From Microbacterium caowuchunii (GTDB lineage: Bacteria > Actinomycetota > Actinomycetes > Actinomycetales > Microbacteriaceae): 64,000 bases of DNA. Under the pieces are notes generated by a model. The model saw only the letters and a list, made by a program, of their open reading frames with translations, did not search any database and was not told where the DNA came from. The position numbers and the translations under genes were made by a program. The stretch is from contig NZ_CP044231.1 of NCBI RefSeq assembly GCF_008727755.1, positions 2,294,001-2,358,000 on the forward strand, in the 5' to 3' direction. This document shows, piece after piece, positions 44,721 to 61,912 of the stretch; position 1 is the stretch's first letter, and each line of letters starts with the position of its first letter.

Positions 44721-45131
44721 ATGCGGTATTGGCGCGGTATCACTACGTTCTTTCTGCTCCTTGCGCTGATCGTCGCGGCACCGGCACCTGCGCTCGCCGC
44801 TACGGATACGGCCGGGCCGGTGTTCGTGTCGAGTTCGGTGAGCGCGTCGTCGTTCAACCTCGCGAAAGGGCCGGCGCGGTTCACGGTCCGGGTCTCCTTG
44901 AAGGACCCCGCAGGCGTCCAGACGCCGACCATCACCGTCAGCCATCAGGGCACGGACCAAGGCCACGGATTCGGCGCGATGACCCTCGTTTCCGGCGACG
45001 CCACGAACGGCACATGGGAACGGCAAGTGACGATCCCCACCCACGCTGCACCCGGCCAATGGGATGTCACGCTCTACCCGACCAGCGACACCCTCGGAAA
45101 CACCGGAGACTTCTTCCGCACCATCGCCTGA
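44721..45131 (+). pseudogene. 5' part of an interrupted secreted Ig-like/FN3 protein gene
   Basis: The first 136 codons remain. A signal peptide (MRYWRGITTFFLLLALIVAAPAPALAA) precedes one Ig-like domain (VFVSSSVSASSFNLAKG...VSLKDPAGVQTPTITVSHQG...WERQVTIPTHAAPGQWDVTLYP). The frame ends at a TGA formed by the first three bases of the IS3 element at 45129. Related secreted proteins continue into fibronectin-III repeats. The matching FN3 C-terminus lies 16.6 kb downstream at 61748-61912 on the same strand. I infer that both are ends of one gene. Confidence 0.75.
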
Positions 45132-45143
45132 ACCGTCCCCGGT

Positions 45144-45497
45144 TTGATGCCGTTTCCTTTCGAGTCTGGAAGGAAGATGTTGAGTATGCCGAAGAGGATT
45201 CCGGAGGAGACGAAGCAGCGGGCGGTGCGGCTCGTTCTTGATCACCTCGATGAGTACCCAAACCTGACGGCCGCGTGCGAGACGGTGTCGAAGCGGCTGG
45301 GGTTCGGTTCTGAGTCGTTGCGCCGGTGGGTGCGGCAGGCGCAGGTCGATCAGGGCGATCGTGCGGGGGTCAGCTCGATCGAGAATGAGGAGCTCAAAGC
45401 GTTGCGACGCGAGGTGCGGGAGCTGCGAGAGGCGAACGCGATCTTGCGGGACGCGGCGGTTTTCTTCGCCGGGGAACTCGACCCCCGACGGCGTTGA
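45144..45497 (+). CDS. IS3-family transposase OrfA (HTH), left copy
   Basis: A 117-residue protein with a transposase-type HTH (MPKRIPEETKQRAVRLVLDHLDEYPNLTAACETVSKRLGFGSESLRRWVRQAQ) and a C-terminal leucine-zipper-like helix (IENEELKALRREVRELREANAILRDAA). It overlaps orfB by 4 nt, as usual for programmed frameshifting in IS3 elements. It has Cys where the right copy has Gly (AACETV versus AAGETV). The true start may be MPKRIPEE, 14 codons in. Confidence 0.9.
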   Translation: MMPFPFESGRKMLSMPKRIPEETKQRAVRLVLDHLDEYPNLTAACETVSKRLGFGSESLRRWVRQAQVDQGDRAGVSSIENEELKALRREVRELREANAILRDAAVFFAGELDPRRR

Positions 45498-46442
45498 TCG
45501 TCGCGTTCATCGACGAGCAACGAATCAAACACCGCGCGGTCGAGTCGGTCTGTCAGGTCCTGCGGGAGCAGGGCGTGCAGGTCGCCGCGCGGACCTATCG
45601 GGCCTGGAAGCGGGCCGAGCCCAGTGCGCGGGTTGCGGGCGGACGCGGTGGTCATCGACGCGCTCCTAGCCACGGTGGGAACGCCGGAGGGGTTGTATGG
45701 GCGGCGGAAGATGACCGCTCACCTGAGGCGGGGCGGACTGGTGGTCTCGAAACGACAGATCGATCGGCTGATGCGCGATCTCGGGCTGAATGGTCTGGTC
45801 CGAGGACGGCGGGTACGAACGACAGTCCCGGACCGTCATGCCGATCGCGCCCCGGATCTACTCGATCGGGACTTCACCGCCCAGGCGCCGAACCGCCGCT
45901 GGGTCGCGGACTTCACCTATGTCAGGACGTGGGCAGGCTTCGCTTATGTGTCGTTCGTGATCGACTGCTTCTCCCGAGCGATCGTGGGCTGGCATGCCGC
46001 GACCGTGAAGACGACCCCGCTGGTGACCACCGCGCTGCGGATGGGGTTGTGGCGGCGCGATCGCGCCGGCCACCCGGCCGTTGACGGGTTGATCCATCAC
46101 AGCGACGCGGGCTCGCAATTCACGAGCGTGTCGTTCGCCGAGACTCTCACACTCGAAGGCATCGCCGCGTCCATCGGATCAATCGGCGACGCATACGACA
46201 ACGCGCTGGCCGAATCGACCATCGGGCTGTTCAAGAACGAAGCGATCCGCGAGGGATCTCCCTTCCGATCTGGGCCGCTCAAGACGATCGACGACGTCGA
46301 ATGGGCCACCGCTGGCTGGGTCGACTGGTACAACGCTAGGCGCCTGCACTCCACCCTCGGAAACGTCCCGCCCGACGAGTACGAAGCGGTCTACTACGCT
46401 GACCTCGAAACGCCATCCCACCCGGTGATGGCGCCCGCATAG
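45494..46442 (+). pseudogene. IS3-family transposase OrfB, left copy, frameshifted
   Basis: Begins as MIVAFIDEQRIKHRAVESVCQVLREQG and loses frame near 45631, where an extra T (GGGTTGCGGG here, GGGTGCGGG in the right copy) is present. The remainder continues in the next frame from about 45640 to 46442 with the DDE residues intact: D in WVADFTYVR, D in IHHSDAGSQF, E in NALAESTIGLFKNE. No functional full-length transposase is expected from this copy unless a compensating frameshift occurs. Confidence 0.9.
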
Positions 46443-46503
46443 GAGCGGCAGAAAACCGGGGACGGTTCAAAGTTCAGCATGATTGTGCTGCAATTTGGCG
46501 GGA

Positions 46504-46509
46504 TAGGGT
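46504..46509 (+). promoter_or_regulatory. Leaderless -10 hexamer
   Basis: TAGGGT followed by CGGGCCC and the ATG at 46517. Confidence 0.45.
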
Positions 46510-46516
46510 CGGGCCC

Positions 46517-46846
46517 ATGGGGCACATCGCGAAGAGCACGGTGGTGATCGCCGTTGTAACGCTGGGCTTCATCTCGATCTTGATGTCGATCGCGTTCAGG
46601 TGGCCGGCTTCGCAGTGGATCGTTCCGATCGCGTGCGTGGTCCTTGTCATCGGATTACTCGCCGGTCTGGTGCGCTATCTGCCGCGTCGTACACGGCGAT
46701 CTCGCCGACCATCGGCCGAACTGTCTGCCTCGGACGGATACTCGGACCTCGAACTCGGGCGCCCTCCGATCACGAACTATCCCCGCGACGAAGCAAGCAC
46801 ATCGCAGATCGGTGATCCGCCGCCGCATCGTCCACCGTCCCCGTAG
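46517..46846 (+). CDS. Small two-TM membrane protein, function unknown
   Basis: A 109-residue protein with two membrane segments (VVIAVVTLGFISILMSIAF and IVPIACVVLVIGLLAGLV). A basic stretch (RYLPRRTRRSRRPS) follows, then a hydrophilic Pro/Asp-rich tail. No family is recognised. It begins 47 bp inside the IS-bounded block. The leaderless-type start context supports it being a real gene. Confidence 0.55.
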   Translation: MGHIAKSTVVIAVVTLGFISILMSIAFRWPASQWIVPIACVVLVIGLLAGLVRYLPRRTRRSRRPSAELSASDGYSDLELGRPPITNYPRDEASTSQIGDPPPHRPPSP

Positions 46847-46944
46847 TTGCTGACATCGAGCGCCTTCGCATCGAACGCATCGTTCGTAGAGCTGCAGACG
46901 CTGCCTACCGAGGCCGCATCCAGGTCGTATCAGAGGAGGACTAT

Positions 46945-47013
46945 ATGCAGAACATGCCAATCGTCCTCTTATGTTTTGTCATAATCACCAATATCGGCAA
47001 ACGCAATTATTGA
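46945..47013 (+). CDS. Possible 22-residue hydrophobic peptide with strong Shine-Dalgarno
   Basis: Reads MQNMPIVLLCFVIITNIGKR then NY and stop. A perfect AGGAGG lies 6 nt before the ATG. The Shine-Dalgarno is part of GAGGAC (46936-46941), which can pair with GTCCTC (46963-46968) inside the reading frame. A short hydrophobic peptide with a charged tail resembles type I toxins or leader peptides. The frame is also open upstream (ADIERLRIERIVRRAADAAYRG), so it may instead be the tail of a decayed gene. Confidence 0.35.
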   Translation: MQNMPIVLLCFVIITNIGKRNY

Positions 47014-47041
47014 GTGTTTCAACTAAATGGCGGGCCTCGAG

Positions 47042-47299
47042 TTACTTGAGTCGCTCATCCTTCACGCGTCCGCACGATCCGCACACTCGGTAGCCGGCGG
47101 ACGCCGTCGACCCGCAGTTGGTGCACGGGCCGTCGAGCATTGCCTGCACCTTCTGGTCGACCATCAGCTGGATCTGACGCCGCTTGGCCACCTGCTTCTG
47201 TGCCTGTCGGAAGAAGAAGAACGACACCGCACCCAGCGCGATCGCCCACACCCACGCCAGGAGAACCTGCAGGAAGTTCGGTCCACTCGGGGTGAACAT
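47042..47299 (-). CDS. Small membrane protein with C-terminal zinc ribbon
   Basis: An 85-residue protein. One membrane segment (FLQVLLAWVWAIALGAVSFFFF) precedes a basic amphipathic stretch and a zinc ribbon with paired cysteines CTNCGS...CGSCG. It may anchor a metal-binding domain at the membrane; no family name is recognised. Its start lies within a few bases of the point where umuD similarity begins on the other strand, suggesting an old recombination junction there. Confidence 0.7.
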   Translation of the reverse strand: MFTPSGPNFLQVLLAWVWAIALGAVSFFFFRQAQKQVAKRRQIQLMVDQKVQAMLDGPCTNCGSTASAGYRVCGSCGRVKDERLK

Positions 47300-47304
47300 C
47301 ATGA

Positions 47305-47466
47305 ACGTGGGAACGAGGGCGGTGGCTGAAGACTCTCGTCCGCTCCGCCGGCCGAGTCGTCCTGCAGGCCGAGAATCCGAAGTACCCGTCCATCCGGCTC
47401 GAGGGCGAGATGGAGATGACGGTGTGGGGCGTGGTCACCTACAACATCCATCGGCACCTGACGTGA
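47305..47466 (+). pseudogene. umuD: 3' remnant of umuD (S24 peptidase)
   Basis: About 53 codons remain, reading RWLKTLVRSAGRVVLQAENP, KYPSIRLEGEMEMTVWGVVT and a short tail. This is the C-terminal end of a UmuD/LexA-type self-cleaving protein. It carries the LK-LVR segment around the catalytic lysine and the typical ENPxYPxIxLEG...VWGVVT strand. The serine-containing half and the start are missing, and a stop codon closes the frame at 47302. Its TGA overlaps the GTG of the polymerase gene (GTGA), as in intact umuDC operons. Confidence 0.8.
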
Positions 47467-48728
47467 TCGGGCTCGTCGACGCGAACTCGTTCTACGCGTC
47501 GTGCGAGCGCGTGTTCGATCCGAAACTCGAGGGTCGCCCGGTCTGCGTCCTCTCGAACAACGACGGCTGTGTGGTCGCTCTCACGTCCGAAGCCAAGGCG
47601 CTGGGCATCAAGATGGGGACGCCGTGGTTCAAGATCCGGAGCTTCGCTGAGCATCACGGAGCGGTCGCGAAATCCAGCAACTACGAGCTCTACGGCGACT
47701 TGAGCCATCGCCTCCATCGTCTCGTGGAGCGGTTCGGAGCGTGGGTCGAGGAGTACTCGATCGACGAGTGTTTTCTGCACGTAAACGAGCAGAGAACCGA
47801 CCTCGCCGCTCTCGGCCGAGAGATCCGCGAAGCAGCTCGGCGGAACATCGGCCTCCCGGTCTCCGTCGGCTTCGGACCCTCCAAGGTCCTCGCGAAGCTC
47901 GCCAACCACGGGGCGAAGCGCGCTCCTCATCTCGGCGGCGTCTGCGACTGGACCGCGTACACGCCCGAGCAGCAGGAGGTGATCCTCGCGCACTATCCCA
48001 CGAGCGAGACCTGGGGCATCGCCGGCCGCCTCGAGCAGAAGCTCGCCGCCCGCGGCATCGAGAACATGCTGCAGCTGCGCGACGCGGACGCCGGCGCGAT
48101 CAAGAAGGCGTTCGGCGTCACCGTGCAGCGCATCGTCTACGAACTCCGCGGCATCCCGTGCATCGAGATCGAGCCGGTCCGGAAGACCAAGCAGCAGATC
48201 ATCTCGTCCAGGATGTTCGGCCATCCGGTGGAGGACCCGGACACCGTCGCACACGTCCTCTCTGTCTATGCCCAGCGCGCCACGGCGCGCATGCGTGGCG
48301 AGAAGTCCGTGGCCGGGCTCGTCTCCGCGTTCGCCGCGTCGTCGCCGTACGCCGACAACTACACCTCCGCTTGGGGGCAGATGGCGTTCGGGATGCCCAC
48401 CGACGACCCGGTCGCGATCGCCAAGGCGGCGACCGAGAGCCTGAAGGGTCAGCTCCGACCGGGAGTGAAGTACGTCCGCGCCGGGGTCATGCTGAACAAG
48501 CTCTCCCCCGCCGAGTCGCACAGCTTCCTCCCGGCGTTCCAGCCGGACTACGACCGCCGCGGCGTCGGCGAGCTGCTCGACAAGATCCACCGCCGCCACG
48601 GCGACAGCGCCGTCGGCCTCGGCCTGGCCGGCATCAGGCTCGGCCCCGCCTTCGAGATGCGCCGCGAGATGCTCTCGCTCCGCGCGACGACGCACTGGAA
48701 CGAGCTGGCGACGGTATACGCGCGCTGA
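47463..48728 (+). CDS. umuC: Y-family DNA polymerase, UmuC-type
   Basis: A 421-residue translesion polymerase. Catalytic acidic residues are D6 (GLVDANSFYASC) and D101-E102 (YSIDECF). The VLSNNDGCVVALTSEAKALGI segment and the KQQIISSRMFG/C-terminal MRREMLSLRATT region are typical of UmuC rather than DinB. The GTG start overlaps the stop of the umuD remnant. Without an intact UmuD in the window, its activation would depend on another copy or on independent activity. Confidence 0.9.
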   Translation: MIGLVDANSFYASCERVFDPKLEGRPVCVLSNNDGCVVALTSEAKALGIKMGTPWFKIRSFAEHHGAVAKSSNYELYGDLSHRLHRLVERFGAWVEEYSIDECFLHVNEQRTDLAALGREIREAARRNIGLPVSVGFGPSKVLAKLANHGAKRAPHLGGVCDWTAYTPEQQEVILAHYPTSETWGIAGRLEQKLAARGIENMLQLRDADAGAIKKAFGVTVQRIVYELRGIPCIEIEPVRKTKQQIISSRMFGHPVEDPDTVAHVLSVYAQRATARMRGEKSVAGLVSAFAASSPYADNYTSAWGQMAFGMPTDDPVAIAKAATESLKGQLRPGVKYVRAGVMLNKLSPAESHSFLPAFQPDYDRRGVGELLDKIHRRHGDSAVGLGLAGIRLGPAFEMRREMLSLRATTHWNELATVYAR

Positions 48729-48844
48729 CGCGCTCATGGGCGACCGCCAGACAGCACAGCTGTCTCGGGAGGCGGCCGGCAGATTCAGGGTCTCCCTGTC
48801 TGCCCCGGTCCCGCACACCCGCGGGAAGGTCACCACCTCCCGGT

Positions 48845-48860
48845 TCGACACACATGTCGA
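48845..48860. promoter_or_regulatory. Perfect 6-4-6 palindrome upstream of RIIA-like gene
   Basis: TCGACA-CACA-TGTCGA, ending 15 nt before the ATG at 48876. It has the same arm and spacer layout as the actinobacterial SOS box (TCGAAC-N4-GTTCGA) but differs at two arm positions. It probably serves as an operator. Two other short inverted repeats, AGACAG-N5-CTGTCT (48749-48765) and GGCAGA...TCTGCC, lie in the same leader. Confidence 0.5.
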
Positions 48861-48875
48861 CCAGACAGGAACACC

Positions 48876-51053
48876 ATGAAGATCACTGCACCCAGGCGAG
48901 TCGCCCCGGACGACTCGCATTACCTCGACCCGGCGCTCTTCGGCGAGGACGACCGCTTCGTACTGTCGACCATCCGGCCCGAGGACACGTCGATTGCGGT
49001 CGAGATGCTCATCGGCAACTACGCGTCGCCGATGGACGCCGTCGTCCGCGAGCTGTACGTCAACGCGGACGACTCCCACCGCTCGGCCGGCCAGACCCGG
49101 CCTGTCGAGATCACGATGCCCACGGAGGATTCCCCGTTCCTCGTCGTTCGCGACTTCGGCCTGGGCATGAGCGCCGCCGACATGGTGGGCGTCTTCACCC
49201 GTCCCGCAGCGTCGACGAAGCGGAACGAGAACACCTCGGCCGGCTGCCTCGGTATCGGGGCGAAGTCCCCGTTCACCGTGGCGGATCGCTTCGTCGTGCG
49301 TGGCGTCAAGAACGGCGTCTCGGTCACCCTCGTCATGGCCCGCATCGACGGGCACCTCATGCACCACATCGTTCACGAGGTCACGCCCGTCGACGAGGTT
49401 GGCGTGGACGGTGTGGAGATCACCGTCCCGGTCGAGGTCGACAAGATCGAGAAGTGGTGGAAGGCGCTGTCGCGCGTCCACTTCTGGTGGGACGAGGGTC
49501 GAGCCCTCATCACGAACAGGGAAATGTCTCCCGTCGGTCTCCCCACATGGTCGGAACGGATCCTCGAAGGCGGCTCTGCGCCTTCGGGGCCGACCGTCGT
49601 GCACAACCAGTCTCTTCGGTCGCCGGCCGTGCTCATGGGTCAGATCAGCTACGCGATCCCGAAGGACATGTTGGTCGTTCAGGAGCCGCTGCTCTACGTC
49701 GTCCCCGTCGGGGACGTGAGCATCGCACCGAACCGCGAGTCGATCGTTGACACGGAGGAGAATCGCCGCCTGATCGAAGAGCTGACCTACGCGTGGCAGC
49801 AGGAACAGTTCCACGACCTGGCCGAGACGCTCATGGACCCGACCACGAGCATGATGGCGATGTCGGCCATCCATGCCGACTTGAAGAGTCGAGCCCTCGT
49901 CCGTCACTTCCACACGTGGGCTCGCCGCGCGCGTCCAGACGACCACAAGGCGTACCGACTGCCTCGTTACGACATCGGGCTGAACGTCCCCTTCGCTCAG
50001 TCCTCTCCCGTTGAGATGCGTGTCCATGGTGCCCCGGAGCACGCCTCGGCCCGGGTGATGTCCTGCGAAGATGTTGCGCAGCTTGCTTCGGAACAGAACG
50101 TGCCGAAGGTGGTTTTCGTCGATCGCGACAAGCTACCTGAGGCGCGCCGGAAGATCCTCACCAACTGGGCGCGCGCCGAGAACGTGATCGCCGTCGTCGC
50201 GTCCCGCTTGGATCTGGCGGATGTCCGGTTCGGCAACAACTGGGGCTGGACGGCGGATCCTGACACGTTGACCCGGCCGTTCGCTGCGTCGGACGAGATC
50301 GAGTGGGTGAACCCGGACGACATCCGGATCGCCCGCGTCAAGCACCAGAGCTCGACACCGGCGCCGACTTCTTCGTCGCCGATCGAGGTGATCGACCTGT
50401 CGGTGCATATGCGCGACAGGAGGGAGATGACAGTGGGTGAGCTGGTCGCTCACACGCGGTCGCGGTCCAACCGCTGGGTGATCGTCGACACGGTGGCCGA
50501 GATCAGGAGGATCGACGCGCGGCTGCCGTCGAACATCGTCGCGGTCGCGAGCGGTCAGCGCCCGGCGGCGTTGCTCAGGAGCGAACTCGGCGCTCGGGCG
50601 ATCACGGCCGCCGAGTTCCTGTCCAAGCAGACCGAGTACGTGCTGAGATCACTCACGTCTTCGCAGAAGCGGTTCATCGCGGACCTCGCAATCGCCCAGC
50701 TGCCGCAGATCGATCGCTTCTTCCGTCAGAGGACTGAGTGGATCGAGAAGACGGAGGATGTGGCCGTCCGCGATGTCGCCCAGGCGATCTCGAAGATCGT
50801 CAAGAAGGTGATCGAGGAGCACCGCGGCACAGGTCGGACGCCGCGGCCGGGCTACGGACCGAGGGACTTCGCCTGGGCGCTCGGAGTCCACGCGCTCAAG
50901 CAGTCGTGGCTGGTCGAGCACGGCTCACTGGGCAAGTACGCGCCGGCGCTGATGGCTGCTCAGTCCCCCGGGCTGACCATCTACCAGTTCCGGGAGGAGC
51001 GCGAGGCGGTGATCGACCACATCCGCGCCACCATCGCCACTCAGCTCATCTAG
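48876..51053 (+). CDS. Phage RIIA-like GHKL ATPase
   Basis: A 725-residue protein. Its N-terminal third is a GHKL/HSP90-type ATPase domain: N box VVRELYVNADDSH (E59, N63, D65), G1 box RDFGLGMS (93-97), G2 box GCLGIGAKSPFTVADRF (123-138). The GIGAKSPF version is characteristic of phage rIIA-like proteins rather than MutL, Hsp90 or histidine kinases. The remainder is unrecognised. rIIA proteins of T-even phages block exclusion systems; function outside phages is unknown. It suggests a phage or plasmid source for this block. Confidence 0.75.
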   Translation: MKITAPRRVAPDDSHYLDPALFGEDDRFVLSTIRPEDTSIAVEMLIGNYASPMDAVVRELYVNADDSHRSAGQTRPVEITMPTEDSPFLVVRDFGLGMSAADMVGVFTRPAASTKRNENTSAGCLGIGAKSPFTVADRFVVRGVKNGVSVTLVMARIDGHLMHHIVHEVTPVDEVGVDGVEITVPVEVDKIEKWWKALSRVHFWWDEGRALITNREMSPVGLPTWSERILEGGSAPSGPTVVHNQSLRSPAVLMGQISYAIPKDMLVVQEPLLYVVPVGDVSIAPNRESIVDTEENRRLIEELTYAWQQEQFHDLAETLMDPTTSMMAMSAIHADLKSRALVRHFHTWARRARPDDHKAYRLPRYDIGLNVPFAQSSPVEMRVHGAPEHASARVMSCEDVAQLASEQNVPKVVFVDRDKLPEARRKILTNWARAENVIAVVASRLDLADVRFGNNWGWTADPDTLTRPFAASDEIEWVNPDDIRIARVKHQSSTPAPTSSSPIEVIDLSVHMRDRREMTVGELVAHTRSRSNRWVIVDTVAEIRRIDARLPSNIVAVASGQRPAALLRSELGARAITAAEFLSKQTEYVLRSLTSSQKRFIADLAIAQLPQIDRFFRQRTEWIEKTEDVAVRDVAQAISKIVKKVIEEHRGTGRTPRPGYGPRDFAWALGVHALKQSWLVEHGSLGKYAPALMAAQSPGLTIYQFREEREAVIDHIRATIATQLI

Positions 51054-51057
51054 GGTC

Positions 51058-51125
51058 GAGCCGGCAACCATCGAGAACCCCTGTCGCCTTCGGGCGGCGG
51101 GGGTTCTTCTTTCGCGACTGACGGC
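51058..51125 (+). terminator. Terminator module, copy 1 of a 68-bp repeat
   Basis: Hairpin GAACCCC...CGCC/GGCG...GGGGTTC followed by TTCTTTCGC, directly after the RIIA-like gene. The whole 68 bp recurs at 53703-53770 with 3 mismatches. Confidence 0.85.
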
Positions 51126-51221
51126 ACCGAGGGCCGCGGAAGAACCAGTGCATGTGCGGGATGACACGTGTCCCCCATTTGGACTACAGACACAGAGTCC
51201 ACAGCTGAGAGGGTGGGAAAT

Positions 51222-51596
51222 GTGAACACACCGGACCATCACGAGGAGACGAAGTCATCCATCGCTGTGTGGGCGGTCGTTGCGTATGTGGTGCTGTTGA
51301 TGGCCACGGTTGCCGCTGTCATCCTGGCCGCAAGCTCGCTGGGCTCACTGTCCGGTGAGCTGCCAGTGGACGACCCCACACCCGACGAACAACGGACGTG
51401 GCAAACCGGCCTGTACGCCCTATGGGCAGGCATTGCAGGGGCTGTACTGACGACCATCACCGGAGTGATCGCGGGTTCCCGGATGCCTAAGCAGCAGTTC
51501 TTCTGGGCCGCTGGGTTGGCGGCCGCTTCCATCCTCGTCGTCGTGATCGCGGCAGTCGCCACCTGGGCGGTTGTCCTCCCGCCCTTGCCCAGCTGA
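51222..51596 (+). CDS. Small membrane protein, function unknown
   Basis: A 124-residue protein with three membrane segments (VWAVVAYVVLLMATVAAVILAASSL; LYALWAGIAGAVLTTITGVIAG; FFWAAGLAAASILVVVIAAVATWAVVL). GTG start with GAGGGTGGGAAAT upstream. No family is recognised. An AraC-type HTH gene follows 18 nt downstream on the same strand, so the two may be co-transcribed. Confidence 0.65.
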   Translation: MNTPDHHEETKSSIAVWAVVAYVVLLMATVAAVILAASSLGSLSGELPVDDPTPDEQRTWQTGLYALWAGIAGAVLTTITGVIAGSRMPKQQFFWAAGLAAASILVVVIAAVATWAVVLPPLPS

Positions 51597-51614
51597 CTGG
51601 CACCCGATCACGAA

Positions 51615-52229
51615 ATGCCGCCGCCCAGCCCGTCGCTCGAGGAGTTGCGGCGACGTGCAGTGGGGATGATCGCCCAGGACTATCACGATCCTTCATGTAG
51701 CCCGGTGACGATATCCCGGATGCTCTATGTGTCACGCCGACAGCTGTCACGATCCTTCGAGCACGACTCCCTGGGGCCCGGGGCAACAATCGCCGCGATG
51801 AGGGTCGAGGCCGCCTGCGTGCTGATCGCCGGGGACCCGGCCCGCGCATTGCGGGATGTTGCGGTCTTGGTCGGGTTCGCCGATCCTCAGACATTCCGGG
51901 CCCAGTTCGCCACACGGACGGGTGTGCTCCCGAGCGAATTCCGCGCGATGGCAGAGGCGGGGTCCGTCTCAAACAGACAGCAAGGGCCTGCCACCGGCGA
52001 GGTGACAGACCCTTGGCGGCTGTTACGGGTTGCAGCCGACGGCAGCCTGAAGCCACCACCACACGTCCGCCCGCCACGATTCCATGTCGTACGTGGGACC
52101 GCCACCGGCGTAGTTGTAGACCACGTGGCAGTGGAATTGGTTCTCGATCGTCGATATGACCTTGCTCGCGTTGCTACCGAGGCGGGCCCTCAAGTCCGCG
52201 CTGTGGTAGGAGAGGATCGCCGCCCCTGA
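51615..52229 (+). CDS. AraC-type HTH protein, C-terminus probably run-on
   Basis: Residues 1-115 are an AraC DNA-binding domain with two HTH motifs (PVTISRMLYVSRRQLSRSFEHD and ALRDVAVLVGFADPQTFRAQFATRTGVLPSEFRA). The frame then stays open to 52229. The last ~70 codons are antisense to the end of the DUF2599-like gene and look non-natural. The original stop was probably near the hairpin at 51982. There is no ligand-binding domain. It may control the adjacent secreted-protein genes, but that is only positional. Confidence 0.6.
   Translation: MPPPSPSLEELRRRAVGMIAQDYHDPSCSPVTISRMLYVSRRQLSRSFEHDSLGPGATIAAMRVEAACVLIAGDPARALRDVAVLVGFADPQTFRAQFATRTGVLPSEFRAMAEAGSVSNRQQGPATGEVTDPWRLLRVAADGSLKPPPHVRPPRFHVVRGTATGVVVDHVAVELVLDRRYDLARVATEAGPQVRAVVGEDRRP
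51982..52014 (-). terminator. Imperfect hairpin terminator of DUF2599-like gene
   Basis: On the minus strand AAGGGTCTGTCACC, loop TCGCC, GGTGGCAGGCCCTT with 3 mismatched positions, 8 nt after the stop at 52023 and followed by GCTGTCTGTTTG. Confidence 0.6.
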
Positions 52230-53883: not shown

Positions 53884-53889
53884 TATAAT
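53884..53889 (+). promoter_or_regulatory. Consensus TATAAT -10, leaderless, for the Fic gene
   Basis: TATAAT followed by TGCTGC and the ATG at 53896. The surrounding DNA (ATATTCCGTTAAATGTTGG) is markedly AT-rich. ATATTCCG also forms one arm of the PadR-gene operator at 56343. Confidence 0.65.
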
Positions 53890-53895
53890 TGCTGC

Positions 53896-55137
53896 ATGCC
53901 CACAGATCACACCCGCACCCTCATCCCCGTGGATGCGGTCACGCACGAGACCTACGACTGGGCGCCGCGCGCGCCACAGATGTTCTCGCGCGCCGAGGTC
54001 GAGCGACAGACGGGACCCTACGAGGCAACCGTCACAGCTCCGATCGCGAACTGGTCCCCGGTCATCTCGGGTGACGAGCTGGCGAACATCGAGGACGCCA
54101 CTCGTCAGCTGGTCGAGTTCGACAAGCACGCGCAGAGCAAGCTCGGTTCAGACAGTCCGGCGCTCGGGCCGATGACCGCGATCCTGCTGCGCACGGAGTC
54201 GGCGTCCAGCTCCCAGATCGAGCAGCTGACGACGTCGGCGAAGCAGCTCGCTCTCGCCGAGATCGATGAGGGTGACAAGGCCAACGCGCTCACCGTAATC
54301 GGGAACGTCCGCGCCATGGAAGCCGCGCTCCGGCTCGCCGACGACATCAGCGCGGAGTCGATCCTCGCGATGCATGAGGCGCTGATGCTCCACCAGAGCG
54401 GCTTTGACCCGATCGCGGCCGGCCGCTTCCGTGAGGAGCAGGTCTGGATCGGGCCAGGGGAAGCCGGCCCTCGCGTCGCTGACTTCGTCGCGCCGCATCA
54501 TGATCGCATTCCCGGTGCGATCGAGGACCTCGTCTCCTTCATCGACCGCGAGGATCTTCCGGTGCTCGTCCAGGTCGCCGTCGCGCACGCCCAGTTCGAG
54601 ACGATCCACCCGTTCCCCGATGGGAACGGACGAACCGGCCGCGCGCTCGCGCAGTCGATCCTCCGGAACAAGGAGCTCGTCGGATCGACCGCCGTGCCCA
54701 TCTCAGCGGGCCTCCTCGTGCACACCGAGCGCTACTTCGACGCCCTCGGCGCGTACCGGGCCGGCGACGCCGGACCCATCGTCCGCGAGTTCGTCGCGGC
54801 GAGCCTGATCGCATCCGCCACCGGAACCGAGCTCGTGGACGACCTCGTCGTCCAGCTCGAGGAGTCGCGCGCCAAGATGTCCGGCATCCGGGCGGACGCC
54901 ACCGCGTGGAAGATCCTGCCCACCCTCGTCGGCCAGCCCGCGGTGACGACGAAGTACCTGAAGCAGGTCCTCGGCCTCGGGGAGATGGCTGCGCTTCGGG
55001 CACTGGAGACGCTCACCGAACGCGGGGTCCTGACCGAGACCACGGGGTGGAGCCGGAACCGTGTCTGGCAGCACGCCGGCATCTTCGAGGTGCTCGACGG
55101 CTACGCCGCGAAGATCCGTCGGATGTCCTCTCGCTGA
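53896..55137 (+). CDS. Fic-domain protein (probable AMPylator)
   Basis: A 413-residue protein of the Fic/DOC family. It has a Fic_N domain, the catalytic motif HPFPDGNGRTGR at 238-249 (catalytic H238) and a C-terminal winged helix (ATAWKILPTLVGQPAVTTKYLKQVLGLGEMAALRALETLTERGVL). The N-terminal inhibitory helix reads SSQIEQ (105-110): the glutamate is kept but the usual following Gly/Asn is Gln. It probably transfers AMP to a protein target and is autoinhibited (class II). No separate antitoxin gene adjoins it. Confidence 0.9.
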   Translation: MPTDHTRTLIPVDAVTHETYDWAPRAPQMFSRAEVERQTGPYEATVTAPIANWSPVISGDELANIEDATRQLVEFDKHAQSKLGSDSPALGPMTAILLRTESASSSQIEQLTTSAKQLALAEIDEGDKANALTVIGNVRAMEAALRLADDISAESILAMHEALMLHQSGFDPIAAGRFREEQVWIGPGEAGPRVADFVAPHHDRIPGAIEDLVSFIDREDLPVLVQVAVAHAQFETIHPFPDGNGRTGRALAQSILRNKELVGSTAVPISAGLLVHTERYFDALGAYRAGDAGPIVREFVAASLIASATGTELVDDLVVQLEESRAKMSGIRADATAWKILPTLVGQPAVTTKYLKQVLGLGEMAALRALETLTERGVLTETTGWSRNRVWQHAGIFEVLDGYAAKIRRMSSR

Positions 55138-55160
55138 GTCTGGCTCGGCCCGGTCATGAC

Positions 55161-55200
55161 GAACCCCCGGCGCCCTCGAGGCGGCGGGGGTTCTTCTTTC
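55161..55200 (+). terminator. Terminator after the Fic gene, related to the 68-bp module
   Basis: GAACCCCCGGCGCC pairs with GGCGGCGGGGGTTC (one mismatch), ending TTCTTTCGC. It shares the GGGGGTTCTTCTTTCGC tail with the two 68-bp modules. Confidence 0.85.
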
Positions 55201-55266
55201 GCTCTCGGTCCTGGACATGAAGGAGGGGAAGAGTCCGCGGACCCTCCCCCTCCTATCCCTGTCGCT

Positions 55267-56223
55267 CTACGGGTTGCAGAGCGTTGCGATGAAGCCGGGA
55301 AGACCGATGTCAGGCTTGTTCGTCTCCAGGTTCCACGGGCTCTTCAGCGGACCGGCGACCATGTGGCAGCCGATCTGGTTCCGAGTCGTGGACGCGTTGA
55401 TCTTGTTCTTGTTCGCCTGCGTCACCTGAGCGTTCGCAAGCTCTGTCGCGGCGACGCCCTGCCAGGTCAGCGCGCAGGAGACGTTACCCGGGCATGCCCA
55501 CTGGGCGAAGGTGGTCGGGGTCATGGCGATGCGCGTGGCGCCGCTGTACCAGGACCACTCCTGGACCCACGTGCCGCCGAGCCACGGGTCGGCGACCACG
55601 GGGTACGCGTTGGCGCTCGTGTGCGCGACGTGCTGCACGAGAGCAGTGCCGTCCACCTCATAGCGGGTGTCGACTGCGGCGCCGTCGGCGTCGACCGCCC
55701 AGGGTGCGAGCACGGCGTACAGGACCTCACCGTCTTCGTCGCGGACGGCTACGCCACCGTCTTCGACGGCCGAGAGAGATGCCCCTGCGGGCAGGTTGAA
55801 CTCGTACCGGTACTCGGTGGGGCTGGCGGCTCCCTCGATCACGGAGATGAGCTGGATCGAACCGTCGTCCTTCGGGATCGGGACGGCGATCGAACCGTCC
55901 CCGCCGTCGTATCCGACCAGACCCTCGCCGACGTCCTCGCCATCCACCGACGCGCCGGGCAGCTGGACGGAGATCTCTTCCGCACCAGATCCCACGATGA
56001 TCGGCTCGCCGGAGTTGTCCGGGATGACGATCCCCGCGTCCTCCGGCGCGGAGACGTTGTTGAGCAAGGTCGGCGCCTCGTCCGTCAGTGCTGTGAGTTC
56101 CAGCGCATCCAGCACGGTCAGCTCGTCATCGGTCGAAGCGAAAGCCGCCCCGCCGATACCCGCTGCCAGAAGGCAGCCGACGGCAGCCGAGGCCGCGAAC
56201 GTGCGCAGTCGTTTTAACTTCAT
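55267..56223 (-). CDS. Secreted DUF2599-like protein (paralogue 2)
   Basis: A 318-residue protein with a signal peptide (LRTFAASAAVGCLLAAGIGGAAFA). It has the same middle motifs as paralogue 1 (YEFNLPAGASLSAVEDGG, APWAVDADG, LVQHVAHTSANAYPVVADPWLGGTW) and a C-terminal DUF2599-type end (NQIGCHMVAGPLKSPWNLETNKPDIG...CNP). GGGGGAATCACC precedes the ATG. It is convergent with the Fic gene and divergent from the PadR gene. The two paralogues within 3 kb suggest duplication or linked acquisition. Confidence 0.78.
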   Translation of the reverse strand: MKLKRLRTFAASAAVGCLLAAGIGGAAFASTDDELTVLDALELTALTDEAPTLLNNVSAPEDAGIVIPDNSGEPIIVGSGAEEISVQLPGASVDGEDVGEGLVGYDGGDGSIAVPIPKDDGSIQLISVIEGAASPTEYRYEFNLPAGASLSAVEDGGVAVRDEDGEVLYAVLAPWAVDADGAAVDTRYEVDGTALVQHVAHTSANAYPVVADPWLGGTWVQEWSWYSGATRIAMTPTTFAQWACPGNVSCALTWQGVAATELANAQVTQANKNKINASTTRNQIGCHMVAGPLKSPWNLETNKPDIGLPGFIATLCNP

Positions 56224-56342
56224 GGTGATTCCCCCGGTATCTGGCGGTCGGATCTCGGCTCGCCGTGGTGGACGCCCCGTCGCCGGCGGATGCTGGCAGG
56301 TGACGTGGATGCGAAGGTAGCGGAGGAATACTCTTGTCCGCC

Positions 56343-56380
56343 ATATATTCCGACGACTCGGGATATATCGGTGCTACATT
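56343..56380 (+). promoter_or_regulatory. Operator palindrome and leaderless promoter of the PadR-membrane gene pair
   Basis: ATATATTCCGA (56343-56353), CGAC, TCGGGATATAT (56358-56368): 10 of 11 positions pair. The -10 TACATT (56375-56380) is followed by GCCGTC and the ATG at 56387. Position just upstream of the -10 fits PadR autorepression. Confidence 0.75.
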
Positions 56381-56386
56381 GCCGTC

Positions 56387-56713
56387 ATGGCCGTCACCGA
56401 TTTGCAGTTCGCCGTGCTGAGCTCGCTCGCCTCAGGGCGTCAGCATGGGTACGCCCTCATGCAGGATGCCGAAGCGCAACTCGGGAAGCCTCTCGCCGTC
56501 GCGACGGCGTACGCGTGCTTCGACGCGCTGGTCAGCCGCGGGTGGATCATCCAGGACGGCGAGGAGGTAGTGAACGGTCGCACCCGGCGGTACTACTCCC
56601 TGTCACCTGTCGGTGGGCAGACTCTGGCGGCTCGTGCCGACGAGCTCGCCGCGCAAGCGCGGCTGGCCCACGAACGTCTGCGTGGTGCGAACGGGAAGGC
56701 GGCAACAGCGTGA
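56387..56713 (+). CDS. PadR-family transcriptional regulator (short)
   Basis: A 108-residue PadR winged-HTH protein: VTDLQFAVLSSLASGRQHGYALMQDAEAQLGKPLAVATAYACFDALVSRGWIIQ, then the wing with GRTRRYYSLSPVG and a short dimerisation helix. The stop overlaps the GTG of the following membrane-protein gene. Small PadR-membrane-protein pairs of this kind are common and often respond to envelope stress or antimicrobial compounds. Confidence 0.85.
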   Translation: MAVTDLQFAVLSSLASGRQHGYALMQDAEAQLGKPLAVATAYACFDALVSRGWIIQDGEEVVNGRTRRYYSLSPVGGQTLAARADELAAQARLAHERLRGANGKAATA

Positions 56714-57459
56714 GCGAACTTCGTCAAGACGTGGAGCGCATGCTGCGCTGGTACCCGTCTCGTTGGCGTCAGCAGCACGGTGAAGCGATCCTTGGCATCT
56801 ACCTCGACGCTGCGGACGTTCGCGGCGACGAAGCGCCGCTCAGCCGCGCAGACCGCAAAGCGCTTCGCGCCGGCGGCCTGTTCGAGCGCTCGAGGTACTC
56901 GCTCCCCATCGTGGCTGCGTTCCTCGGCACGGTGTCGATCGCGGCCGGTATGGCCATGACCACGCAGCGCGTGGAGATCTGGGGACCGCTGTTGTGGCTC
57001 CTGGTGGGCCCGGCTCTGCTCTGCCTCTCGATCTTCGGCCTTCGCGCAGCGGCACAGGGTGGATGGACCGCAGCGACGATCTCCGCCACGGTCACCTCGG
57101 CGGCCGCAGCGTTCGCACTCATGAGCACCTTCTGGGTCGGCATGCTGCGCGATGAAGTCGGCCTCGGAGTTCCTCCACTCTCCAGCCTTTGGGCGCTCGG
57201 CCTGCTCTACATGGCCTTCGTGGGACTGGTCCTCACGATCACGATGGCGCCGCTGTTCACTCGCTCGGGAGTCCGCCAGGACTGGGCCTTCACGATCGCG
57301 TTCATGTCCGGCTTCTTCGGGGCGATCCCGCTGACGCTTGGCCTGCTCAGTGGAGTCGCCGCCGTCCTCGTCGGCACGGGCCTCGTCTTCTACTCGATCC
57401 GCGTCGCCCGTCGTCACCGCCGCGGCGCGAAGAGCGTACCGACCGCCGAGATCGCGTAG
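56710..57459 (+). CDS. Membrane protein coupled to PadR regulator
   Basis: A 249-residue protein. A soluble N-terminal stretch (SELRQDVERMLRWYPSRWRQQHGEAILGIYLD) resembles the helical start of proteins paired with PadR regulators. About six membrane segments follow. GTG start overlaps the PadR stop (GTGA). No transport motif is seen. Its function is presumably linked to whatever signal the PadR protein senses. Confidence 0.75.
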   Translation: MSELRQDVERMLRWYPSRWRQQHGEAILGIYLDAADVRGDEAPLSRADRKALRAGGLFERSRYSLPIVAAFLGTVSIAAGMAMTTQRVEIWGPLLWLLVGPALLCLSIFGLRAAAQGGWTAATISATVTSAAAAFALMSTFWVGMLRDEVGLGVPPLSSLWALGLLYMAFVGLVLTITMAPLFTRSGVRQDWAFTIAFMSGFFGAIPLTLGLLSGVAAVLVGTGLVFYSIRVARRHRRGAKSVPTAEIA

Positions 57460-57532
57460 AGCGTCGCCTCCCCGTCGTCACGGCGCTGGCCGCCGGCGGT
57501 GTCGCGAGCGCGAACGCCGTGGTTGCCGCGCC

Positions 57533-57834
57533 GTGACCACGAGACGGTCACAGGATGGTCACTTGACGCCCACGGAGGGGCGTCGCGACCCCGTTTCGTC
57601 GTCGTCATGGGTCTATGGGCGCGCCGTGGCCGCGTGGTGACCACGCAGTGGGCACACAGTGACCAGTGGCTGGTCACACGTCGTGGGAACCCCCGATTCA
57701 GCCCCGCTCGAGGTCTTGAATCGCTCTTGTGGTCGGGAAGTGGTCACTCCCCGACCCTCAGGTGGCCACTCGCGGGCCACTCGCGGGTCACGTGTGGGCA
57801 CAGAGTGGCCGGCCAGTGGCCGGGAACTGGTCAC
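57533..57834. repeat. Array of GTGACC/GGTCAC words
   Basis: Nine copies in 302 bp at 57533, 57546, 57557, 57637, 57659, 57672, 57742, 57786 and 57829. Three read GTGACC on the plus strand and six read GGTCAC. Seven extend to GTGACCA. Variants GTGGCC/GGCCAC add about five more at 57626, 57762-57769, 57775, 57805 and 57816. Chance expectation is about 0.15 copies. Confidence 0.85.
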
Positions 57835-58284
57835 AGATTCCCGATGCTGCGCACCGGATCGGTGCTCACAGGGGCGAATGTGGACGGGACCGTGGAGCCT
57901 ATGGGGGCGTGCGAAGAGGCCCCTACGCTCCGCCGGGCAGGAGCTCCTCCAAACTTCCTCTTCGCGGTGCTCATCGTCGTCTGGAACGCACCTTCCCGGC
58001 GGAGCTGGGCAAACGGCGGAACTGCAACGGGGCCTCCACAGGAGGGATACGCCAGGCCTGACAGGCCGCTCCCCGCCCCCTCTGATGAGACTGCTCCGGG
58101 TGCTGATCTCTCCTCGAGCTCGCGGCCGACGGAGGGCGCACGGGTGAGATTCAGCGGAGCTTGATGGGGCCAAAGCCGTCCTCGGGGGCTACCGCCCCGT
58201 CGGCATGGACGCGCAATCTCAGCGTCGGACCAGTCCGCCCCTGAACTCCTACTTCGGCCGATGATGCAAGGGTGGCGGGCAACA

Positions 58285-58347
58285 GTTTCCAAGCCCGTCC
58301 CGGCTCTCTTTCGGCTGCGCCGGAGAGCTCTGGCCGACCTTGGAAAC
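58285..58347. repeat. Nested long palindrome
   Basis: The outer arms GTTTCCAAG (58285-58293) and CTTGGAAAC (58339-58347) are perfect. Inside them GCTCTC (58303-58308) pairs with GAGAGC (58323-58328), and a small CGGC-TGC-GCCG hairpin forms the tip. It is about 63 bp and could be a cruciform, a structured RNA or a recombination site. Confidence 0.7.
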
Positions 58348-58842
58348 CAATCGTGAACAGCGCCAGTCGTGACTGTGTGGGAGGCACCCACTTGCGGATC
58401 TGACAGCGCCACCGGGACGGTATCTGGACGGACTCGTGACGGGGTCCGCGACGAGCTCTGTGGCGTCCCTTCGCTACGTGCTCTGCGACGAATTCCGTGT
58501 CGGTCTCACATCCGCCGGCGGAGCCCTGCTGCTCTGCGTAGAGCAGTCTCCCGGCTCGATGTAAGAGCGATGTGGCAACCGGTCTGGCGACCGATTCTGT
58601 GCTGTCTGATGCGGGGATCCTGGCCACGGCACAGCCGTGTCCGATGTGGCGAGAGAAGAGCTCAGAAGCGTCGCTGCGCTCCTGTCGCGGTACTCATCGT
58701 GCACGCCGTCGCTACGCGCCGTCGCACCCGCTGAATGGTGTCAGAGCGCCATGAGGGAGGTCGCAGCGATGCTGCAACATGCGCTGCTTCGAGGGCTAAA
58801 GCAGCCGCGTTGCCCGCGGCCGCGTCGGGGTGGAACGAGGAA

Positions 58843-59023
58843 GGATACTCCTTCCTCGACGTCGCTTCGCAGGCTCAGCTCGAGGCATGGATACCTGGTG
58901 CCACTTCGTTCCAAACCAGGTATCCACGCCAACCCCGACTTTCCGGTGCAAAAGGATGGCCAAGTATCCTTACCCCGCTTCGCGCCCTGCGGGTTCGGGC
59001 AAGGATACTTGATGGGAGTATCC
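58843..59023. repeat. Array of GGATAC/GTATCC words in inverted pairs
   Basis: Six copies in 181 bp at 58843, 58889, 58920, 58964, 59003 and 59018. They form inverted pairs: GGATACCTGG with CCAGGTATCC, and AAGTATCCTT with AAGGATACTT. Chance expectation is about 0.1 copies. Confidence 0.85.
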
Positions 59024-59204
59024 ATCCTTTTCCCCAGATGAAGCAGCAAATATGACCTCGATCCACCGCTGCAGCGTCGGATGCGAGGGAGAAAGAGAAA
59101 AAGAGCATAAGAGAGCGTGGCACCGGGCGGCGTTTTCTCCCTCGCTGCGCTCGTCGAAATCTTGCCCGGTGGTCGGCATAGCCGACACGCTTTCGGTCAC
59201 CTCT

Positions 59205-59316
59205 GAGACCGTCGCTGCGCTTGGTCTCTGAGCCTCCCTCACCCTCGTCGCTACGCTTCTCGGGCTCTCACTGCGGAGCTGTCGCTCCTTGCCCTTCGAC
59301 GCCCCACTGGGGCGTC
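59205..59316. repeat. Short hairpins
   Basis: GAGACC-N12-GGTCTC (59205-59228) has the loop GTCGCTGCGCTT. GACGCCCC-ACT-GGGGCGTC (59298-59316) has eight perfect pairs. GTCGGC-ATA-GCCGAC lies just upstream (59172-59186). The word TCGCTGCGCT recurs nearby at about 58670, 59141 and 59212. Confidence 0.65.
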
Positions 59317-59614
59317 TCCGGGTGCTCCCGTCGATGCGGTGCCACTGCTTCGCTGCGACGCCGACATCGTCGGTTGACCGCGTCCATTCGGAGCGCGGTG
59401 CAACAACGCGGCCGTCTGCCGCGGATGGTGCTGAGGAAGGGACAGATGGCACTCAGAGTTCCGACGCTGTCGCGTCGATCAGGTTCTGATTCGTGCCGAT
59501 GTGACAGGGGGTCGGCGATGCCGACCCGGGGGTCCGATTGATGTCCCTCACGGTTCCGTGAGTGGGTCCATCATCGACCCTGTTTCACCGATCCGGACCA
59601 GGAGGTGCGGCGCC

Positions 59615-60112
59615 ATGGGCAAGAGCAAGAGCAGAGGCTTCCGTGAGATGCGGAAGCCGCGGCCGGAGCTTCCTGACGTGCCCGATCTCGGGACCTTGTC
59701 CATGCCCAGGAAGAGCAATCGAGCTGCGGCGAAGTACGTGGCAATGGTGGGGTCCTTATGGGGCCGACGCCGTGCCGATCGGAAGGCGCGCAAGCTCGCG
59801 CTGCGGCGCCAGGATGCCCAGGCGGCCAACCCGCGCAGGCATCATCTCGACAAGGCCGTGCGCGAGCAGATGCTCACCGCCATGCCCGGCTGGGTCTTCG
59901 ACCACAAGACCAAGATGTTCGTCCCGATGGATGATGCTCCCGAAAGGCTCGAGGAGCTGCTCGATGCAGTGACGGATCTGCAGTCGCAGACCATCGTCCT
60001 GCGCGTCGCCGGCCTGTCGCCGGCGGAGGCCGCGCGCGTGCGCGGCTACCTCCAGACCGGTTCCAGCCTCATCGCTGTGAACAGTCGGCCGCGAGCATCG
60101 ATCTCCGCGTAG
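59615..60112 (+). CDS. Basic protein of unknown function
   Basis: A 165-residue protein. Its N-terminus is strongly basic (MGKSKSRGFREMRKPRPELP; RKSNRAAAKYVAMVGSLWGRRRADRKARKLALRRQDAQ), followed by a more regular C-terminal half (AMPGWVFDHKTKMFVPMDDAPERLEELLDAVTDLQSQTIVLRVAGLSPAEAARVRGYLQTGSS). It suggests nucleic-acid binding. AGGAGGTG lies about 10 nt before the ATG. A palindrome CTCACGG-TT-CCGTGAG lies 53 bp upstream. No family is recognised. Confidence 0.65.
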   Translation: MGKSKSRGFREMRKPRPELPDVPDLGTLSMPRKSNRAAAKYVAMVGSLWGRRRADRKARKLALRRQDAQAANPRRHHLDKAVREQMLTAMPGWVFDHKTKMFVPMDDAPERLEELLDAVTDLQSQTIVLRVAGLSPAEAARVRGYLQTGSSLIAVNSRPRASISA

Positions 60113-60125
60113 GACTGCGACATTC

Positions 60126-60144
60126 GCGCGAAATCATTTCGCGC
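60126..60144 (+). terminator. Short palindrome after the basic-protein gene
   Basis: GCGCGAAA-TCA-TTTCGCGC, 13 nt after the stop at 60112. It could act as a terminator, although no T-tract follows. Confidence 0.4.
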
Positions 60145-60170
60145 TCACTTCTCGGAATGATTCCCTTCGA

Positions 60171-60327
60171 CTTCTCGGGCGACCAGTGCCCGTACGAACG
60201 CCACGAAAGCCATTTCCTGCTCGGTGCAGTCGATCTACTTGTCGGCCCGGCCCATAGTCGGCGCGAACGCCAATGCCCTCGCGGCCGGGCCGACACCCTC
60301 TCCGCTTCAATACTTCTCGGGCGACCA
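60171..60327. repeat. 15-bp direct repeat enclosing a 12-bp-arm palindrome
   Basis: CTTCTCGGGCGACCA occurs at 60171-60185 and 60313-60327. Between them GTCGGCCCGGCC (60241-60252) pairs perfectly with GGCCGGGCCGAC (60283-60294). No gene is visible in 60113-60406. Confidence 0.7.
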
Positions 60328-60433
60328 TTCTTACTACGCATAGCCATACTGCATCCGTCGCCCGAGAACCCACTTCGGCTGCACCCAATGTCCGGACGGA
60401 CGCCACTGAACCGTCCCCGGTTTTCTGCCGCTC

Positions 60434-61381
60434 CTATGCGGGCGCCATCACCGGGTGGGATGGCGTTTCGAGGTCAGCGTAGTAGACCGCTTCGTACTCG
60501 TCGGGCGGGACGTTTCCGAGGGTGGAGTGCAGGCGCCTAGCGTTGTACCAGTCGACCCAGCCAGCGGTGGCCCATTCGACGTCGTCGATCGTCTTGAGCG
60601 GCCCAGATCGGAAGGGAGATCCCTCGCGGATCGCTTCGTTCTTGAACAGCCCGATGGTCGATTCGGCCAGCGCGTTGTCGTATGCGTCGCCGATTGATCC
60701 GATGGACGCGGCGATGCCTTCGAGTGTGAGAGTCTCGGCGAACGACACGCTCGTGAATTGCGAGCCCGCGTCGCTGTGATGGATCAACCCGTCAACGGCC
60801 GGGTGGCCGGCGCGATCGCGCCGCCACAACCCCATCCGCAGCGCGGTGGTCACCAGCGGGGTCGTCTTCACGGTCGCGGCATGCCAGCCCACGATCGCTC
60901 GGGAGAAGCAGTCGATCACGAACGACACATAAGCGAAGCCTGCCCACGTCCTGACATAGGTGAAGTCCGCGACCCAGCGGCGGTTCGGCGCCTGGGCGGT
61001 GAAGTCCCGATCGAGTAGATCCGGGGCGCGATCGGCATGACGGTCCGGGACTGTCGTTCGTACCCGCCGTCCTCGGACCAGACCATTCAGCCCGAGATCG
61101 CGCATCAGCCGATCGATCTGTCGTTTCGAGACCACCAGTCCGCCCCGCCTCAGGTGAGCGGTCATCTTCCGCCGCCCATACAACCCCTCCGGCGTTCCCA
61201 CCGTGGCTAGGAGCGCGTCGATGACCACCGCGTCCGCCCGCACCCGCGCACTGGGCTCGGCCCGCTTCCAGGCCCGATAGGTCCGCGCGGCGACCTGCAC
61301 GCCCTGCTCCCGCAGGTCCTGACAGACCGACTCGACCGCGCGGTGTTTGATTCGTTGCTCGTCGATGAACGCGACGATCAA
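60434..61381 (-). CDS. IS3-family transposase OrfB, right copy, intact
   Basis: A 315-residue DDE transposase with an N-terminal HTH_21 segment (IDEQRIKHRAVESVCQDLREQG...SARVRADAVVIDALL; PEGLYGRRKMTAHLRRGGLVVSKRQIDRLMRDLGLNGL) and an rve integrase core. Catalytic residues are D in WVADFTYVR, D in IHHSDAGSQFTS and E in NALAESTIGLFKNE. It is produced with OrfA as a frameshift fusion in this family. This copy can presumably also mobilise the left copy in trans. Confidence 0.95.
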   Translation of the reverse strand: MIVAFIDEQRIKHRAVESVCQDLREQGVQVAARTYRAWKRAEPSARVRADAVVIDALLATVGTPEGLYGRRKMTAHLRRGGLVVSKRQIDRLMRDLGLNGLVRGRRVRTTVPDRHADRAPDLLDRDFTAQAPNRRWVADFTYVRTWAGFAYVSFVIDCFSRAIVGWHAATVKTTPLVTTALRMGLWRRDRAGHPAVDGLIHHSDAGSQFTSVSFAETLTLEGIAASIGSIGDAYDNALAESTIGLFKNEAIREGSPFRSGPLKTIDDVEWATAGWVDWYNARRLHSTLGNVPPDEYEAVYYADLETPSHPVMAPA

Positions 61382-61731
61382 CGCCGTCGGGGGTCGAGTT
61401 CCCCGGCGAAGAAAACCGCCGCGTCCCGCAAGATCGCGTTCGCCTCTCGCAGCTCCCGCACCTCGCGTCGCAACGCTTTGAGCTCCTCATTCTCGATCGA
61501 GCTGACCCCCGCACGATCGCCCTGATCGACCTGCGCCTGCCGCACCCACCGGCGCAACGACTCAGAACCGAACCCCAGCCGCTTCGACACCGTCTCGCCC
61601 GCGGCCGTCAGGTTTGGGTACTCATCGAGGTGATCAAGAACGAGCCGCACCGCCCGCTGCTTCGTCTCCTCCGGAATCCTCTTCGGCATACTCAACATCT
61701 TCCTTCCAGACTCGAAAGGAAACGGCATCAA
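61378..61731 (-). CDS. IS3-family transposase OrfA, right copy
   Basis: A 117-residue HTH protein identical to the left copy except Gly for Cys (AAGETV). It overlaps OrfB by 4 nt. The reading frame opens only 15 bp inside the element; translation may start at MPKRIPEE, 14 codons in. Confidence 0.92.
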   Translation of the reverse strand: MMPFPFESGRKMLSMPKRIPEETKQRAVRLVLDHLDEYPNLTAAGETVSKRLGFGSESLRRWVRQAQVDQGDRAGVSSIENEELKALRREVRELREANAILRDAAVFFAGELDPRRR

Positions 61732-61747
61732 ACCGGGGACGGTTCAC

Positions 61748-61912
61748 ACCGCATCCCCCGGCGGGAAAACCACCACCACCACCGACACCCGGGTCAAAGT
61801 CACCGGGCTCAGCAACGGCACCGCCTACACCTTCACCGTCACCGCCACCAACACCGCCGGCACCTCCCCCGCCTCCACCCCGACCGCGAAGACCACCCCG
61901 AAAACAGGCTGA
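61748..61912 (+). pseudogene. 3' remnant of a fibronectin-III domain of the interrupted secreted protein
   Basis: A 54-codon fragment directly abutting the right IS copy. It is the C-terminal half of an FN3 domain: TASPGGKTTTTDTRVKVTGL, SNGTAYTFTVTATNTAGTSP, then a TKTTP-rich tail and TGA. It has no start of its own. It lies in the same orientation as the secreted N-terminal fragment at 44721, and both fit one Ig/FN3 protein split by the IS-bounded block. Confidence 0.75.

Follow-up and report, generated by a model that had tools for sequence, protein, structure and literature searches.

In composite transposons bounded by insertion sequences (IS), such as ISApl1-mcr-1-ISApl1, cargo genes lie between two near-identical IS copies. 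ISApl1 itself is not known as a member of the IS3 family. IS3-family elements have been linked to deletions starting at the IS: in three evolved populations of E. coli, 14 out of 83 IS movements were associated with large deletions without target duplications, and all 14 were movements of IS150 (PMC11708052). A third comparison is offered by surface-polysaccharide loci, in which variable slots are filled differently from one relative to the next. Here we analyze 64,000 bp (hereafter the window) of Microbacterium caowuchunii, whose genome is a single contig of 3.26 Mb, and describe an insertion within window positions 1-64000 that carries two IS3-family copies, unrelated cargo, and two surface-protein fragments, one secreted and immunoglobulin-like (Ig) and one with part of a fibronectin type III (FN3) domain, that probably derive from a single gene.

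The insertion resembles composite transposons in having cargo between near-identical IS copies, but it has no outer target duplication, its left copy is broken, the host gene has lost sequence, and no second location of the unit is known. As in the IS150 deletions, the elements belong to the IS3 family, DNA is missing from an IS end, and a target duplication is lacking at the left copy and across the outer edges; here, however, two copies with cargo between them are present and the events are reconstructed rather than observed in time. The slot it occupies, between a GlfT1-like glycosyltransferase gene and wzt, is also filled variously in relatives, where the seven slots that were read hold acyltransferase, pyruvyl-transferase, epimerase or secreted-protein genes, whereas the cargo of the window is not related to polysaccharides. 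We consider it reasonably likely that the locus is an IS-scarred island in this variable slot, with a surface gene, probably a single one, severed at the outer end of each IS. What stands out most clearly as new is a duplicated gene overlap at the outer borders of the island; the block itself represents ordinary genome remodelling, though its borders can be read unusually well.

A duplicated gene overlap borders the insertion

The left neighbour of the insertion is a complete GlfT1-like family 2 glycosyltransferase gene on the plus strand (43613-44614; Pfam Glycos_transf_2). DNA searches matched it in 341 of the 365 other Microbacterium genomes, at least seven of these matches being weak (E about 1e-4). 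On the right, the ABC-transporter ATPase gene wzt (61950-62693; Pfam ABC_tran) is likewise complete and lies on the minus strand next to wzm, an ABC-2 permease gene (62693-63523, minus strand; Pfam ABC2_membrane). There are two copies of the junction at which the 3' ends of the GlfT1-like gene and wzt meet, and together they form an imperfect direct repeat of 45 bp with 36 of 45 positions identical and a longest identical run of 13 bp. The left copy (44577-44621) encodes MPPLADAQPSL* on the plus strand and ADYNEG* on the minus strand, and the right copy (61928-61972) encodes MPPLIEAQPGV* and ADYTPG*, each copy thus reading as a GlfT1-type end in one direction and a wzt-type end in the other. 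No other place reached 33/45 identity to the junction when the window was scanned without gaps. This repeat, which was not seen in the initial annotation, lies outside both surface-protein fragments and puts the likely extent of the insertion at 44622-61927. So delimited, it is a foreign insertion of ~17.3 kb that includes both fragments and leaves the 3' ends of the GlfT1-like gene and wzt complete, and its GC content is 65.5% versus 71.5% for window positions 1-44600.

To place this junction in context, 80 relatives' loci around the GlfT1-like gene were surveyed, 66 of which have a wzt match downstream (those of L019 and L059, at 45-48% identity, are probably other transporters and were treated as unbounded in the protein search). 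The two genes often stand tail to tail: no more than 150 bp separate them in 26 of the 66 wzt-matched loci, and in eight of those 26 they overlap by 16 bp. The native overlap of L009, L047, L068 and L040 can be aligned with the window junction. The bounded slots longer than 150 bp, other than that of the window, number 38, and among them L044 alone has a repeat scoring above all 100 shuffles. There, a 1.1-kb insert (L044:10942-12080) with one long gene on the minus strand is surrounded by an exact 19/19-bp junction repeat, which would make L044 an independent second insertion at the same gene overlap.

The initial annotation had suggested looking in close relatives for an intact secreted Ig/FN3 gene in the GlfT1-wzt slot, and none was found in the 80 loci: 26 slots have no room for one, and in the remaining 54 stretches (38 bounded by wzt and 16 not) protein searches with the Ig fragment, the FN3 fragment and 11 cargo proteins gave no match. 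Since the 80 loci divide in this way, the surface gene does not appear to be native to the slot, and an ancestral Ig/FN3 gene at this position is not supported by the loci compared. In L006 and L008 the slot encodes an unrelated secreted-type protein of 850 aa. The GlfT1-like gene of L006 is 89% identical to that of the window, in a record titled Stenotrophomonas maltophilia that is probably a contamination or mislabelling.

The locus illustrates how imported DNA can be accommodated within a compact cell-envelope locus while two overlapping neighbour genes both stay intact. We tentatively raise the possibility, which we would not yet call probable, that convergent genes overlapping at their ends select which integrations persist, with the window and L044 as two independent examples. 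If so, an import would leave both genes whole only when it supplied a further copy of the overlap, and islands at overlapping neighbours would carry a diagnostic overlap repeat. One narrow literature query returned no published reports of duplicated gene overlaps.

Two inverted IS3-family copies

Inside these borders, the initial annotation had described a 16.6-kb block bounded by two inverted IS3 copies, and this description holds. The outer IS edges (45129-61746) enclose 16,618 bp, of which the cargo between the copies makes up 13,937 bp. The left copy (45129-46469, plus strand) is 1341 bp long and the right copy (60407-61746, minus strand) 1340 bp, and they are separated by two substitutions and one length difference. 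Consecutive orfA (HTH_Tnp_1) and orfB (rve) genes by Pfam and terminal inverted repeats by repeat comparison place the element in the IS3 family. Both transposase frames are open only in the right copy, the orfB frame of the left copy being broken by the one-base length difference. With 40 of the 119 candidate stretches in the genome scored, two matches to the element were found, both in this block. For independent insertions at random sites, the chance of the second landing within 15.3 kb of the first would be ~1% (30.6/3263 kb).

The left copy is flanked by GCC and AAG, without a target duplication, the right copy by CAC on both sides (3 bp), and the outer pair of flanks is GCC and CAC. The comparison took in 12 full-length IS relatives whose ends could be recognised, and left out L180, for which this was not the case. 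A 3-bp target duplication flanks five of the 12 and a 4-bp duplication one, whereas six have none, L156 and L157 among these six sharing their flanks. Two simple histories of the pair were considered and rejected. An inversion between the copies does not account for the flanks, as swapping the inner flanks yields no matching 3-bp flank at either copy, and a circle that had merged by way of a single resident IS would be bounded by direct copies, not by the inverted ones observed.

The surface-protein fragments

Also as described in the initial annotation, the N-terminal fragment of a secreted Ig-like protein ends exactly at the left IS, and an FN3 fragment in the same orientation begins at the right IS. 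The first (44721-45128, plus strand) consists of a signal peptide, judged by eye as were the secreted-type labels used here, and one Ig-like domain; it extends right up to the left IS, whose first three bases supply its stop codon. The second (61748-61912, plus strand) contains the latter half of a single FN3 domain, followed by a stop codon, and corresponds to positions 43-82 of the 84 of Pfam fn3, so that fn3 positions 1-42, half a domain, are missing. Its frame is open from 61748, the first full codon past the right IS, and its alignment to intact FN3 repeats begins at that codon. The fragments share orientation and stand in the right order, but the 16,619 bases between them leave a remainder of two and the join is out of phase; joining them restores neither one reading frame nor complete domains, as a clean split of one gene would.

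The Ig fragment is 58% identical to P0078 over 126 aa, and its homologs occur in one of the 365 other Microbacterium genomes (G319) and in eight genomes of a family-wide sample of 397 others. Ten homologs, found through the fragment or its G319 homolog, were inspected. In nine of them (L116 from G319, P0074 to P0079, L140 and L141; P0076 is also L139), the repeats are of the YQW-type Ig, SLH-like or CW_binding_2 kind and FN3 is absent. This rests on a Pfam scan for L116, P0078, L140 and L141, the last but one of which ends at its locus edge, and on inspection by eye for the other five, with listed Pfam domains also used for P0074 and P0076. The tenth, L142/L150 from another genus of the family, is a protein of the form signal-Ig-Ig-FN3n (fn3 E 2e-80, cut off at the locus end). 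It matches the Ig piece at 38% over 79 residues and the FN3 piece, through one of its FN3 repeats, at 65% over 55 aa, and is thus the one precedent among the ten for both parts in a single protein. Three weak matches (L143, L144 and L146), read by eye, show no FN3. L145 has the appearance of an Ig and FN3 protein, but the Pfam scan gave no family and it was not counted.

Neither fragment has a further match elsewhere in the host genome. The missing middle of the surface gene was not found elsewhere in the genome either, and within the block nothing besides the two fragments scored below E 0.01 among the best eight matches per query. Because both pieces are unique in the genome and the signal-Ig-Ig-FN3n precedent exists, a single gene that lost its middle is the simpler reading of these comparisons, plausible though unproven. 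The earlier proposal of an island inside one surface-protein gene stands as plausible, but nine of the ten homologs carry other domains. A multi-FN3 protein gene lies directly upstream of the GlfT1-like gene in L013 (L013:7025-9910), and FN3 matches of 60-67% occur upstream of that gene in L013 and L097.

Origin of the island

An island assembled in steps would account for these observations as follows. A foreign segment of ~17.3 kb would have entered the variable slot where the GlfT1-like gene and wzt converge, and one junction copy may have arrived with the foreign DNA by homologous recombination, as suggested by two copies that each still form good gene ends despite differing at 9 of 45 positions. 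A secreted surface gene of Ig/FN3 type, the two inverted IS3-family copies and the unrelated cargo would have come with the segment or been added to it later. The surface gene, probably a single one of signal-Ig-FN3 form, would then have been cut at the outer end of each IS and have lost its middle in a transposase-driven deletion that began exactly at an IS end. Several observations weigh against this account. Apart from L044, the other filled and bounded slots (37 of 38) have no such repeat, and the 20% difference between the junction copies could reflect age instead of import. The CAC on both sides of the right IS is at face value its own 3-bp duplication, in which case the FN3 domain would already have been cut when that IS landed; one chance match among the four flank pairs compared has a probability of ~1/16. 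The nine homologs without FN3 speak for other domains after the Ig part, and the order of events given above is a reconstruction.

The locus could alternatively be a true composite transposon, in which the inverted IS pair moved the 13.9-kb cargo as a unit into a single Ig/FN3 gene, with the outer duplication and part of the FN3 domain subsequently lost to decay. The near-identical inverted copies, the only two found in the genome, would fit such a unit, as would the order and orientation of the fragments and the 3-bp duplications made by five of the 12 IS relatives. We nevertheless consider it improbable, given outer flanks that do not match (GCC and CAC), an out-of-phase join with half a domain missing, and a broken orfB in the left copy. 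The unit was also not met elsewhere, the whole cargo having been searched for in the 80 relatives' loci; the RIIA-like gene of the cargo has no near-full-length match in the 365 Microbacterium genomes, and a plasmid relative of its Fic gene is without other cargo. The initial annotation had left the choice between a composite-transposon-like and a serially built island; the foreign, IS-bounded block stands and serial building fits it, while a clean composite transposon does not. An IS pair bounding two gene fragments is thus not by itself a composite transposon; in this case, what are probably the true borders emerged one step outward.

It is also conceivable, if rather doubtful, that two different surface-protein genes were close together in the imported DNA and that their remnants came to lie at the IS edges through two IS insertions accompanied by adjacent deletions. 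The domains of the nine homologs and the FN3 protein adjoining the GlfT1-like gene in L013 would agree with two genes. On the other hand, signal-Ig-Ig-FN3n is known as one protein in L142/L150, and two such remnants side by side, each unique in the genome, are less simple. The direct repeat that restores a gene end would be expected if an integrase had acted at that gene end, with the 45-bp repeat as its attachment sites. Such site-specific integration is very improbable, as the block proteins scanned with Pfam include no integrase besides the IS transposase, the window contains no tRNA, and the repeat copies differ at nine positions and share no identical run beyond 13 bp. We therefore retain the IS-scarred island as our preferred interpretation.

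Cargo of the island

The umuC, RIIA-like, Fic and paired DUF2599 genes named in the initial annotation were recovered between the IS copies by Pfam and PHROG, the first as UmuC-like. This Y-family polymerase gene (47460-48728, plus strand; Pfam IMS, IMS_C and DUF4113; PHROG 1268) scored 349.6 bits against a cut-off of 431 for the UmuC model NCBIfam NF002955, with Pfam and PHROG agreeing on the superfamily. It is followed by a gene for a 725-aa RIIA-like GHKL-type ATPase (48876-51053, plus strand; PHROG 612 RIIA, E 1e-53). Short matches to this protein, mostly to the ATPase domain, occur in 144 of the 365 other Microbacterium genomes, the best covering 145 residues at 38%. The family is rare: 12 relatives in the protein collection reach at least 40% identity over at least 86% of the length, one of which (P0012) is from an unclassified Microbacterium. 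A phage island was considered and rejected, the RIIA- and UmuC-like genes having weak phage relatives and scans of viral contigs, which detect close relatives only, giving none. RNA and tRNA targets were likewise rejected, with no Rfam match at gathering scores in 44000-62500 and no tRNA in the window.

Downstream, a gene for an AraC-type HTH protein (51615-52229, plus strand; Pfam HTH_18) overlaps the first DUF2599 gene (52026-52931, minus strand; Pfam PF10783), whose product is of secreted type. The second DUF2599 gene (55270-56223, minus strand; Pfam PF10783) encodes a protein 29% identical to the first, and the pair (52026-56223) flanks genes for a 189-aa secreted-type protein without a family (53044-53610, plus strand) and for a Fic protein with a Fic_N domain (53887-55137, plus strand; Pfam Fic and Fic_N). 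An Arthrobacter plasmid contains an unannotated stretch that matches the Fic protein at 79% identity over 411 aa, but no other cargo was found in the surrounding 13.3 kb. The Fic protein scored 58.7 bits against a cut-off of 550 for the SoFic adenylyltransferase model NCBIfam NF046030, and E 2.4e-65 for PADLOC SoFic.

The remaining cargo comprises a PadR-type regulator followed by a protein with hydrophobic stretches by eye and no family (together 56387-57459, plus strand; Pfam PadR for the first) and a 164-aa protein without a family (59618-60112, plus strand; third-position GC 0.83). Between them, ~2 kb at 57.5-59.5 kb holds no convincing gene, with third-position GC not raised and no Pfam family in the seven frames scanned. 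A terminator-like repeat stands behind or between cargo genes at 51050-51128 and 53695-53773, which are 92% identical, and as a shorter part at 55165-55202; these three are its only matches in the genome.

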